Assembly (NCBI RefSeq): GCF_009363075.1
Contig: NZ_CP045293.1
Location: forward strand, 5,615,501-5,679,500
Reading direction: 5' to 3'
Origin: Paenibacillus guangzhouensis
Lineage (GTDB): Bacteria > Bacillota > Bacilli > Paenibacillales > Paenibacillaceae
Length of the DNA stretch: 64,000 bases
The position numbers and the translations under genes were made by a program. The notes under the pieces were generated by a model. It searched no databases, was not told the origin of the DNA, and was given only the letters and a program-made list of their open reading frames with translations. Shown in pieces: positions 57,574 to 59,708 of the stretch (position 1 is its first letter; the number at the start of each line of letters is the position of its first letter).

Positions 57574-58053
57574 CTACTTCATGATCGCGTCCATGGCTTC
57601 TTTATATTGTTCGTACAGCGGCTTCCATACTTTCTCACGTGACCCGAAGTTTCGTCCATCCAGCAGGGATGCAATGACGTCGAGGCAGACATGCCATCCG
57701 GCGAGGTCTCTCGGCGTATGTGGCGTTGGCCGTTGAATCGTCTCCTTCATCACGAGCAGGCAGCCTTCCTGCGCAGGATACAATTCGAATCGAACAGCAT
57801 CTTCACCCCACGTGAACGCTAGTACGGCGTTATGCTCGAGTGAGGTAATTGTCATTTCCTCAAATGTACCGTTCTGCATGTCGAATAGGATTCGCCCGCC
57901 TTCGCGAAGGGAGTCTACGCGCAGCTCAGAGAACCATTGCTGCAACTTCTCGTTGTCGGTCAAATAAGCCCATACGGCTTCAACGGGATGCAGTAAATGG
58001 CGGCGGAATTCTGCAATGTAGCCTTCTCCAGCGGGTTTAATGATTGCTAGCAT
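57574..58053 (-). CDS. AHSA1/SRPBCC-family protein
   Basis: A 159-residue helix-grip protein of the activator-of-Hsp90-homologue group: AEFRRHLLHPVEAVWAYLTDNEKLQQWFSE, the strand LREGGRILFDM, and a C-terminal helix DLAGWHVCLDVIASLLDG. These bind hydrophobic ligands in a central cavity; function is unknown. AAGGAGG lies 6 bases before the ATG at 58053. It probably follows the histidyl-tRNA synthetase gene on the same transcript, since no terminator lies between them. Confidence 0.88.
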   Translation of the reverse strand: MLAIIKPAGEGYIAEFRRHLLHPVEAVWAYLTDNEKLQQWFSELRVDSLREGGRILFDMQNGTFEEMTITSLEHNAVLAFTWGEDAVRFELYPAQEGCLLVMKETIQRPTPHTPRDLAGWHVCLDVIASLLDGRNFGSREKVWKPLYEQYKEAMDAIMK

Positions 58054-58109: not shown

Positions 58110-59420
58110 TCATGCCATACCGAAAATTCGAGCGTCTAGATTGTGTTCGATGCGGTAGAGGGCTTCGTCTGGCGTGACGACGGATTCGGTCATTTCCTGC
58201 ATGTCTTTGAGGCGCACCTTCCCGGCACGTGCTTCATCTTCACCCATCAATAGGACGTAGCGAATGCCTTGGGATGAAGCCGACGCGAGTGATTTCTTCA
58301 ACTTGCGCTTCATGAACTCAGTTCGAGTACGAATGCCGTTCGATCGAAGCTCGGCTGCGATTTTTAATGCCTCATGAGCGGTATCCCCAATGGGGATGAT
58401 GAGCACGGCGGCGGTCGGTACAACGGGATTCACGCGATGCTGAATCAGCTCCATGATCGATTCCATCCCAAAAGAAAGCCCCACCGTAGGATAGTCCATG
58501 TCATTCTGCCCGATGAGCTGACCGATGATCGCATCGTACCTCCCTCCAGCACCTAAGCTTGAGGGGTATGACAGGGTTGCGTCGTAAATCTCATAGACCG
58601 TGCCGGTGTAGAACGATAGGCCCCGGGAAAGGAAAGGGTCGAAAGGGCATTCTTGCGATAGTCCCAGCGATTGGATGAGGGATTGTAGAGCTTGGACTTC
58701 CATCGTCCCAGGGCGTTCTTCAAGTCCTTCGTACCTCGAACATACTTCGTCAAAGGTGCTGTTCTTCATCGCAGCGAATGCAAGGATCGCATCGATCACC
58801 TGTGAGTTCAGTCCCTTGGTATTCAGCTCTTCCTGTATGCCGGTCAGGCCGATTTTCTCGATTTTGTCGAGCGTCAGCATCACCGAGAGCATTTCCTGGG
58901 AGGGCACGCCTATGGATTCAAGTAGTTCCCCTAGAAACCGCCGATTATTCCATCGTATCTTCACCGGGATATCCAACCTGCGGAACGCTTCAATCGCAAG
59001 CTGCATCAATTCTGCCTCAGCCTCGGGGCCTTGAATGCCCACCACATCGACATCGCACTGTTGAAACTCACGCAGACGTCCACGTTTTACCGGGCCATCG
59101 CGGAAGACTTTACCCATTTCATATCGTTTGATCGGCAGACTAATACTTGGATTCATGGCGATCAGCTTCGCAAAAGGGATGGTTAAATCATATCGTAGTC
59201 CCAGCTGCCGCATCCCTTGGTCTGTGAGTTGATACATTTCCTTGATGATTTCATTCCCGCCTGCATATTTCGATGTCAATAGCTCGAGTTCATTCAGAAT
59301 GGTCGTATTCGTGCCTTCGAAATCATACAGTTCAAACACGTCCTGAAGTGTGACTTGAATGTTGTGCCGAAGCGCTTGCTCTTGTCCCCAGAAATCATAA
59401 GTTCCTTTTACGTTTTGCAT
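58110..59420 (-). CDS. hisS: Histidyl-tRNA synthetase
   Basis: A 436-residue class II synthetase that charges tRNA-His. The catalytic domain has KGTYDFWGQEQALRHNI, motif 2 YEMGKVFRDGPVKRGRLREFQQCDVDVVG, the histidine-binding motif FLSRGLSFYTGTVYE, and motif 3 PTVGLSFGMESIMEL. The anticodon-binding domain at about 335-430 has VLIIPIGDTAHEALKIAAELRSNGIRTR. Because that domain is present it is not HisZ. Motifs differ from the usual Bacillus enzyme (for example FRDGPVKRGRLREF), so this may be a second, alternative HisRS. The start at 59420 follows GAAGGGA by about 11 bases. A leader-peptide attenuator precedes it. Confidence 0.9.
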   Translation of the reverse strand: MQNVKGTYDFWGQEQALRHNIQVTLQDVFELYDFEGTNTTILNELELLTSKYAGGNEIIKEMYQLTDQGMRQLGLRYDLTIPFAKLIAMNPSISLPIKRYEMGKVFRDGPVKRGRLREFQQCDVDVVGIQGPEAEAELMQLAIEAFRRLDIPVKIRWNNRRFLGELLESIGVPSQEMLSVMLTLDKIEKIGLTGIQEELNTKGLNSQVIDAILAFAAMKNSTFDEVCSRYEGLEERPGTMEVQALQSLIQSLGLSQECPFDPFLSRGLSFYTGTVYEIYDATLSYPSSLGAGGRYDAIIGQLIGQNDMDYPTVGLSFGMESIMELIQHRVNPVVPTAAVLIIPIGDTAHEALKIAAELRSNGIRTRTEFMKRKLKKSLASASSQGIRYVLLMGEDEARAGKVRLKDMQEMTESVVTPDEALYRIEHNLDARIFGMA

Positions 59421-59451
59421 GATCTTCAATCCCTTCTCTGATCGATAAAAT

Positions 59452-59557
59452 AAAAAACGCGCCGGACCCATAGGTCCTGCGCGCTTCGATATGCCGCAGG
59501 TGGGCCAACGCGAATAGCGTTAGCCCACCCTGAAATTTCGATCAGGTGTGCTAACGC
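59452..59557 (-). promoter_or_regulatory. Transcription attenuator of hisS: mutually exclusive hairpins and terminator
   Basis: Read on the minus strand. Segment 1 (59557-59542: GCGTTAGC-A-CACCTGA) can pair with segment 2 (59533-59517: TCAGGGTG-G-GCTAACGC). Segment 2 can instead pair with segment 3 (59511-59498: GCGTTGGCCCACCT), because segments 1 and 3 are near copies. The last part of segment 3 (CCTGCG, 59500-59495) can pair with CGCAGG (59481-59476) inside the terminator's left arm. The terminator (59483-59458, core GGACC / GGTCC and CGCGC / GGCGCG) ends in six T at 59457-59452, 30 bases before hisS. Confidence 0.82.
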
Positions 59558-59601
59558 CGTTTGTAATGATGAAGTTGACTATTCCATTGGATCGTAACCA
59601 T
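59551..59601 (-). CDS. hisS leader peptide (16 residues, two adjacent His)
   Basis: A short frame MVTIQWNSQLHHYKRR with a strong ribosome site (GAAGGAG, 59617-59611) at ideal spacing (9 bases) and a start about 28 bases after the predicted transcription start. Two consecutive His codons (59571-59566) lie four codons before the stop. The stop codon is inside segment 1 of the attenuator. A ribosome held at the His codons would leave segment 1 largely free; a ribosome at the stop would cover it. Confidence 0.8.
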   Translation of the reverse strand: MVTIQWNSQLHHYKRR

Positions 59602-59635
59602 GGTGATGATCTCCTTCAGAACGTGATTTAGAACG

Positions 59636-59664
59636 ATTATAGAGGATTCGCCACAGACATTCAA
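59636..59664 (-). promoter_or_regulatory. SigA promoter of hisS leader
   Basis: On the minus strand TTGAAT (59664-59659) and TATAAT (59641-59636) with a 17-base spacer; predicted start near 59629. Confidence 0.85.
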
Positions 59665-59708
59665 GGGCTGTTTTCATCGTCCGCTAACCCGGCAATGAGA
59701 ACAGCCCT
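59664..59708 (-). terminator. Inverted repeat between chemoreceptor gene and hisS promoter
   Basis: Arms AGGGCTGTTTTCAT and ATGAGAACAGCCCT (one mismatch) with a 17-base loop. It lies after the chemoreceptor stop codon and is probably its terminator, although no T-run follows. Confidence 0.55.

Follow-up and report, generated by a model that had tools for sequence, protein, structure and literature searches.

A conserved leader with histidine codons before a second histidyl-tRNA synthetase gene in the Paenibacillus order, a probable ribosome-controlled attenuator

On the minus strand of the window (the whole stretch of 64,000 nucleotides analysed here), a short reading frame with two adjacent histidine codons and a transcription terminator stand before a gene for histidyl-tRNA synthetase (HisRS). 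The question raised by this locus is whether the supply of charged tRNA-His controls that gene through translation of the frame.

The second synthetase gene and its leader

The product of the gene, designated hisS2, scores 574.3 bits against NCBIfam NF009085 (PRK12420 type), whose cut-off is 540; it carries the Pfam domains tRNA-synt_His and HGTP_anticodon and matches solved HisRS structures by sequence. A better match to TIGR00442 is found elsewhere in the genome, at C1:166795 (the main hisS), and a T-box match at C1:166451-166728 ends 66 nt before it, with 69.3 bits, under the Rfam gathering score of 93. Therefore, judging from these sequence matches, hisS2 encodes a second paralog of HisRS, and the main hisS is the one with a T-box. 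An earlier reading made from the letters of the window (hereafter the sequence-only reading) had correctly named a histidyl-tRNA synthetase, but had placed the leader before hisS, which lies elsewhere. HisRS2 presumably serves as a backup for HisRS1. The closest named relative by HisRS2 is Paenibacillus terrigena DSM 21567 (86%). Directly downstream of hisS2, at 57574-58053 on the minus strand of the window, is a gene for an AHSA1-like (SRPBCC) protein.

The features of the locus, in window positions, are as follows.

59636..59664, minus strand: SigA-type promoter TTGAAT-N17-TATAAT, 10/12 consensus bases (-35 TTGAAT at 59664-59659, 17 nt spacer, -10 TATAAT at 59641-59636); from sequence reading
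Before the leader ATG, minus strand: ribosome site AAGGAG; from sequence reading
59551..59601, minus strand: leader peptide frame MVTIQWNSQLHHYKRR, 16 codons, ATG 59601 to TAG 59551, the stop UAG lying within segment 1
59566..59571, minus strand: tandem His codons CAU CAU, codons -6/-5 from the stop; from sequence reading
59543..59557, minus strand: segment 1, GCGTTAGCACACCTG; from sequence and covariation of helix 1:2
59517..59532, minus strand: segment 2, CAGGGTGGGCTAACGC, partner of segment 1 or 3; from sequence, folding and pair counts
59493..59512, minus strand: segment 3, CGCGTTGGCCCACCTGCGGC, partner of segment 2 or of the terminator (left arm, loop, right arm); from folding and pair counts
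59473..59486, minus strand: segment 4, terminator left arm; from sequence, folding and pair counts
59452..59468, minus strand: segment 5, terminator right arm and six-T run (the six T at 59457-59452 from sequence reading); from sequence, folding and pair counts
58110..59420, minus strand: hisS2, second histidyl-tRNA synthetase, 436 aa, PRK12420 type, ATG at 59420

The promoter and the 16-codon frame with its ribosome site can be read directly on the minus strand, and the five segments and the six-T terminator before the gene, also described in the sequence-only reading, are borne out by sequence and folding. The leader RNA (201 nt) folds to -70.4 kcal/mol (z = -5.5), with none of 200 shuffles equally good. 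The terminator was missed by a pattern scan, whose single match was another hairpin, and is shown by folding. The pairing of segment 3 with the terminator left arm (CCUGCG:CGCAGG), as first proposed, is recovered, but it is not exclusive; the terminator loop and right arm pair with segment 3 too. Two general features of leader-peptide attenuators appear to be present: the gene is preceded by a short frame that contains codons for the amino acid concerned, and folding and pair counts indicate helices that exclude each other, an intrinsic terminator among them.

A scan of the window against Rfam gave no family at gathering score. At the leader site there are four matches at E<=1, all far under their own gathering scores and taken as chance; the His leader RF00514 is not among them and has no window match at gathering score, so the hisS2 leader does not match this family. 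A search of the genome itself with the leader model described below gave one strong hit only, which is the window leader. As candidates for a second copy, a 25.9-bit hit at C1:6430031 (L155) was rejected for having no such frame or arrangement, and a 17.6-bit hit for overlapping the window leader on the opposite strand.

We propose that the leader is probably a transcription attenuator in which the translating ribosome senses the charging of tRNA-His and thereby controls the gene of a backup histidyl-tRNA synthetase. With ample charged tRNA-His, the leader ribosome would get to the UAG in segment 1 and mask this segment; segments 2 and 3 would then pair, the terminator 4:5 would form, and transcription would stop. 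With charged tRNA-His in short supply, the ribosome would pause when the first His codon enters the A site. In the window the first base of this codon is 14 nt ahead of segment 1, which would be just far enough away to leave segment 1 free for pairing with segment 2; segment 3, thereby freed, would pair with the terminator left arm and loop, and transcription would read through into hisS2. The frame is presumably translated, with ribosomes stalling at His, and the direction of control, in which a stall turns the gene on, we infer mainly from the geometry and from the need of the gene.

Attenuation by a leader peptide is known for an aminoacyl-tRNA synthetase operon in pheST of Escherichia coli; the two leaders share this kind of target and differ in amino acid, phylum and RNA. 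In the enterobacterial his and trp leaders, the stalled ribosome masks segment 1, and 2:3 is the antiterminator. The hisS2 leader has a different geometry: the first His codon is upstream of segment 1, 2:3 accompanies the terminator, a stall would leave segment 1 free, and a ribosome at the stop would mask it. Since it is the ribosome at the stop that would mask segment 1, lack of translation should lead to read-through, not to termination. What the hisS2 leader would share with the enterobacterial attenuators is that control codons in a leader peptide choose between terminator and antiterminator (outlined for his in PMC9413887). If the proposal is right, ribosome position, and not the binding of tRNA to a T-box, would report tRNA-His charging in a conserved RNA family that has no Rfam match in the window; HisRS2 would stand under this leader while the main hisS of the same genome keeps its T-box.

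Conservation of the frame, the histidine codons and the helices

A leader model was built from 30 leaders. In 29 of these homologues, segment 1 is preceded at a distance of 70-98 nt by TATAAT or TATACT; in the thirtieth (L042), for which the first script had been anchored on segment 3, the distance is 85 nt. The terms Paenibacillus family and order, as used here, are taken from named relatives such as Paenibacillus terrigena. HisRS2 was found at E<=1e-70 in 70 of 245 family genomes, and in every one of these 70 the leader is matched on the same strand, 28-141 nt ahead of the gene. In genome G228, which carries a fragment of HisRS2 (E 1e-33), the leader is not matched. The model itself matches 91 of the 245 family genomes at E<=0.1, and 127 of 296 order genomes, in 24 of 48 genera, at E<=0.001.

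We examined 140 leaders, a part of all model matches: 88 before HisRS2, each with a HisRS2 sequence next (88/88), and 52 others. Duplicates of one place were excluded beforehand, and so were leaders judged by eye to be weak or decayed (L142, L143, L147, L152-L156, L245-L247), some of them high-scoring (L143, 68.6 bits; L147, 64.8 bits). Leaders with an unplaced segment, frame or U-run were omitted from the folding counts, namely 3 of the 140 from fold prediction and from the test in which segment 2 is kept from segment 3, 5 from the footprint scan, and 4 from the folding of U-run and stem base.

In 136 of the 140 leaders there is a frame whose stop codon, TAG or TAA, falls within segment 1; none was placed in L198, L215, L136 and L149. 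An ATG with a ribosome-site match of at least 4 bases begins 132 of the 136 frames, and 134 end in CGT. Each frame contains a run of aromatic codons (His or Tyr), whose first position is His in 128 of 136 cases (83/86 HisRS2 leaders, 45/50 others). The second position is His in 72/86 and 34/50, respectively, and the third in 63/86 and 36/50. Among the HisRS2 leaders this first position is codon -6 in 71/86 and -7 in 15/86, with 14 nt from codon -6 to segment 1. Tyr comes first in 3/86 HisRS2 leaders and 5/50 others, and L230 is without any His. Two His codons among 16 in the single window sequence are weak evidence; it is the comparison of homologous sequences that shows more than chance to be at work. 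Since Tyr replaces His later in the run, sensing of both His and Tyr, or of queuosine tRNA, was also considered; it was judged less simple, as position 1 stays His.

The same frames bear on a first alternative, in which a small molecule, for example free histidine or an antibiotic, would cause a nascent peptide of the form ..Q-x-H-H-H.. to arrest the ribosome; the RNA switch downstream would be the same, but the signal would not be tRNA-His charging. A Gln two codons ahead of the first His/Tyr is found in 78/86 HisRS2 leaders, in which both CAA and CAG encode it and it is thus kept as an amino acid, and in 44/50 others; the simple attenuator model leaves it unexplained, and peptide arrest would account for it. 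Also in favour of arrest, some targets described below (a NUDIX hydrolase, an arylamine N-acetyltransferase and an uncharacterised protein) are not His genes. However, the peptide part ahead of the His run is, Gln apart, variable in sequence and length, the run drifts to Tyr or Phe at positions 2 and 3 and hardly at position 1, and HisRS is the most common target. We therefore regard arrest by the peptide as unlikely, and the sensing of charged tRNA-His as the better reading of the conserved run.

Covariation was assessed after 137 distinct leaders had been aligned with MAFFT. For the read-through structure, 189 cells with changes on both sides were counted (72 in shuffles), and the covariation score was 0.170 (0.126 in shuffles); the structures tested were taken from the folding of the window itself, and slid controls favour them for this reason also. 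In helix 1:2, 8 of 15 pairs show changes on both sides. In the terminating structure, changes on both sides affect 11 pairs, compared with 5.6 in shuffles, but this structure does not stand above the shuffles in percentage paired, in cells changed on both sides (26 versus 24.6) or in covariation score. Frame, His codons, segments, terminator, conservation and covariation are thus apparent at the level of sequence. The sequence-only reading had named as a check the search of relatives for conserved leader peptides with paired His codons and covarying segments; its interpretation is in this way supported, by the leader in all 70 genomes with HisRS2 at E<=1e-70, by its frame and first His codon, and by the covariation of helix 1:2, which is one of the mutually exclusive helices.

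The predicted switch

A translating ribosome was taken to leave the RNA free from 13 nt after the first base in its A site, a general value. This footprint was slid along the frame and the remaining RNA was folded; an error of 2-3 bases in the footprint would shift the resulting step by one codon. Masking of segment 1 destroys helix 1:2 by construction; the position of the His codons is not built in. Averaged over 86 HisRS2 leaders, the read-through fold has a probability of 0.38 when codon -6 occupies the A site, which drops to 0.09 for codon -5, to 0.003 for codon -4 and to 0.002 for the stop codon. The corresponding means of 49 other leaders are 0.66, 0.43, 0.13 and 0.007. In the window leader the probability falls from 0.73 at codon -6 to 0.001 at -5. 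That is, with the assumed footprint, the alternative folds are computed to switch between these two codons, and the first His codon would be the last position to leave segment 1 free, a rule that is checkable codon by codon. His codons 2 and 3 are conserved too, although the model predicts the OFF state there.

More distant HisRS2 genes (L108-L125, L157-L159) have His-rich leader frames but a different RNA. When the footprint was slid along these 21 leaders, the folds switched clearly in L113 and partially in L119-L122; L157-L159 showed no switch, and most of the remaining leaders showed hardly any or none. The idea of one geometry for all Bacilli was dropped, since these distant leaders switch only in some cases.

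The step by which segment 3 would break the terminator is suggested by the layout, and some folding results speak against it. With segment 1 free, the read-through fold is favoured at equilibrium in just 41% of the 86 HisRS2 leaders. When segment 2 is kept from segment 3, the 3:(4,5) fold wins in 41/88 HisRS2 leaders and 33/49 others, with a probability of 0.998 in the window; the 4:5 terminator is favoured at equilibrium even then in 47/88 and 16/49. In these remaining leaders the order of folding would have to decide, with the read-through fold arising before the terminator and persisting for a sufficient time. Reliance on folding order is also a feature of other attenuators.

These figures give some weight to a second alternative, namely that switching is weak or absent, that both folds terminate, and that the leader is mainly a constitutive terminator modestly tuned by translation. 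The read-through hairpin 3:(4,5) adjoins the U-run too; the median number of unbroken pairs there is 6, the window leader has 8, and 86/88 HisRS2 leaders and 43/48 others have 5-8, so that this hairpin might itself terminate. Yet the stem base at the U-run is stronger in the terminating fold by more than 2 kcal/mol in 87/88 HisRS2 leaders and 48/48 others (in the window, -19.9 kcal/mol, compared with -15.1 in the read-through fold). Because its base is weaker, the read-through hairpin should terminate less well, though maybe still somewhat. In addition, segment 3 and bases of the terminator loop show both-side changes at columns 92:129 and 93:128, in 7 and 8 sequences, and these pairs exist in the read-through fold only. 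Under weak switching, moreover, the conserved frame and His position would serve no purpose. Thus, a mostly constitutive terminator is quite improbable, and we retain the attenuator controlled by the leader ribosome: the conserved His-codon leader of the second HisRS is an observation, and its interpretation as an attenuator largely holds. Of the attenuation model as first put forward, the frame, the His codons and the competing helices agree with comparison and folding, and the breaking of the terminator by segment 3 keeps the more tentative standing given above.

Direct sensing of tRNA-His by a T-box riboswitch, the usual control of Bacillus hisS (PMC2965389) and the one carried by the main hisS of this genome, can be dismissed almost entirely for hisS2. 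The 25 T-box (RF00230) hits of the genome, from 150 scored out of 177 candidates, include none at this site; the Rfam scan of the window gave no T-box that reached gathering score, and 59400-59700 has none even at E<=1.

Related leaders and other target genes

According to the sequence-only reading, no such attenuator was known for hisS in this order. That view has to be corrected: a His leader peptide had been predicted in Bacillus by Naville and Gautheret in 2010, ahead of hisS*, a paralog of hisS, and ahead of hisZ (PMC2965389). As described there, their leader likewise places a His-codon leader peptide and a terminator before a hisS paralog in Bacilli, and hisS* may be the same type of HisRS paralog as HisRS2. 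By that description the two cases also differ; the His-leader section of their paper presents no segment model and names hisS* and hisZ as the only targets, and Paenibacillus has no occurrences in the main text (PMC2965389). For the his operon, Ashniev et al. (2022) predicted RNA attenuators in the Bacillus cereus group, in Peptostreptococcaceae with Lutispora, and in Erysipelotrichales (PMC9413887). These Firmicutes attenuators have three to five His codons directly upstream of the terminator/antiterminator, so that their geometry may be similar; unlike the hisS2 leader they control the his operon, and in the parts of that work considered here no hisS and no Paenibacillus attenuator is named, the Paenibacillus his operons being placed under HisR control. 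No other paper on such a hisS leader appeared among titles and abstract beginnings of the open-access literature, from which subscription papers are mostly absent. What is new here is an RNA family spanning the order (the 127 genomes given above), with a geometry unlike that of the trp/his leaders and with several target genes.

The 52 leaders that do not precede HisRS2 are followed by a NUDIX hydrolase sequence in 26 cases, by a protein consisting of the HisRS anticodon domain only in 8, by an uncharacterised protein in 7, and by a diverged HisRS-like protein in 3. A HAD hydrolase, an arylamine N-acetyltransferase, a tyrosyl-tRNA synthetase (TyrRS) and a shortened HisRS2 follow in one case each. 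In 4 cases none of these genes was found by the same test, and two of these (L127, L128) look like HisRS2 remnants. The family assignments were tested on examples: L137 and L141 for NUDIX, L149 for the acetyltransferase and L248 for TyrRS.

The NUDIX-type loci (L137, L141, L226, L234 and 22 more) have a gene of about 156 aa, which looks broken in at least two of them (L135, L235), and this type of leader also occurs in some genomes without HisRS2 (e.g., G006, G079). A match of the L137 protein to the candidate PADLOC model PDC-S07 (E 1.4e-10, over 38 NUDIX-box residues) was read as a shared fold, and 5 further proteins, L126 and L223 among them, had no PADLOC match. The proteins with the anticodon domain only are about 110-127 aa long and keep the full leader (L216, L218-L221, L239, L241, L242). 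In all 8 of these loci, the next frame looks like a PIG-L-type deacetylase; the one tested, that of L219, has BshB2 as its best NCBIfam match, with 80.5 bits, under the cut-off. The uncharacterised protein, marked by the sequence 'YIRFHGNYSSP...', is conserved behind the leaders L126, L133, L150, L223, L225, L228 and L229, and gave no Pfam match (L126, L133, L150) and no NCBIfam match (those three and L223).

It is conceivable, as a tentative extension of the proposal, that the leader is a portable sensor of tRNA-His charging, with a geometry opposite to that of the trp/his leaders, which is widespread in the Paenibacillus order and has been reused for the second HisRS, the HisRS anticodon-domain proteins, the NUDIX hydrolase, the uncharacterised protein, the arylamine N-acetyltransferase and TyrRS. 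Such reuse before non-histidine genes would link tRNA-His charging to functions with no obvious connection to it, and would offer a way to find the stress that HisRS2 answers. If this were so, we suggest that the set of targets would fit a protection programme induced by inhibition of HisRS or by uncharged tRNA-His.

The case of TyrRS is found at L248:501-1976, where a tyrosyl-tRNA synthetase gene (405.9 bits) follows a leader whose frame reads ..NQLHYYKRR and so contains a single His codon and two for Tyr. Between this leader and the TyrRS gene lies an apparent remnant of the start of HisRS2.
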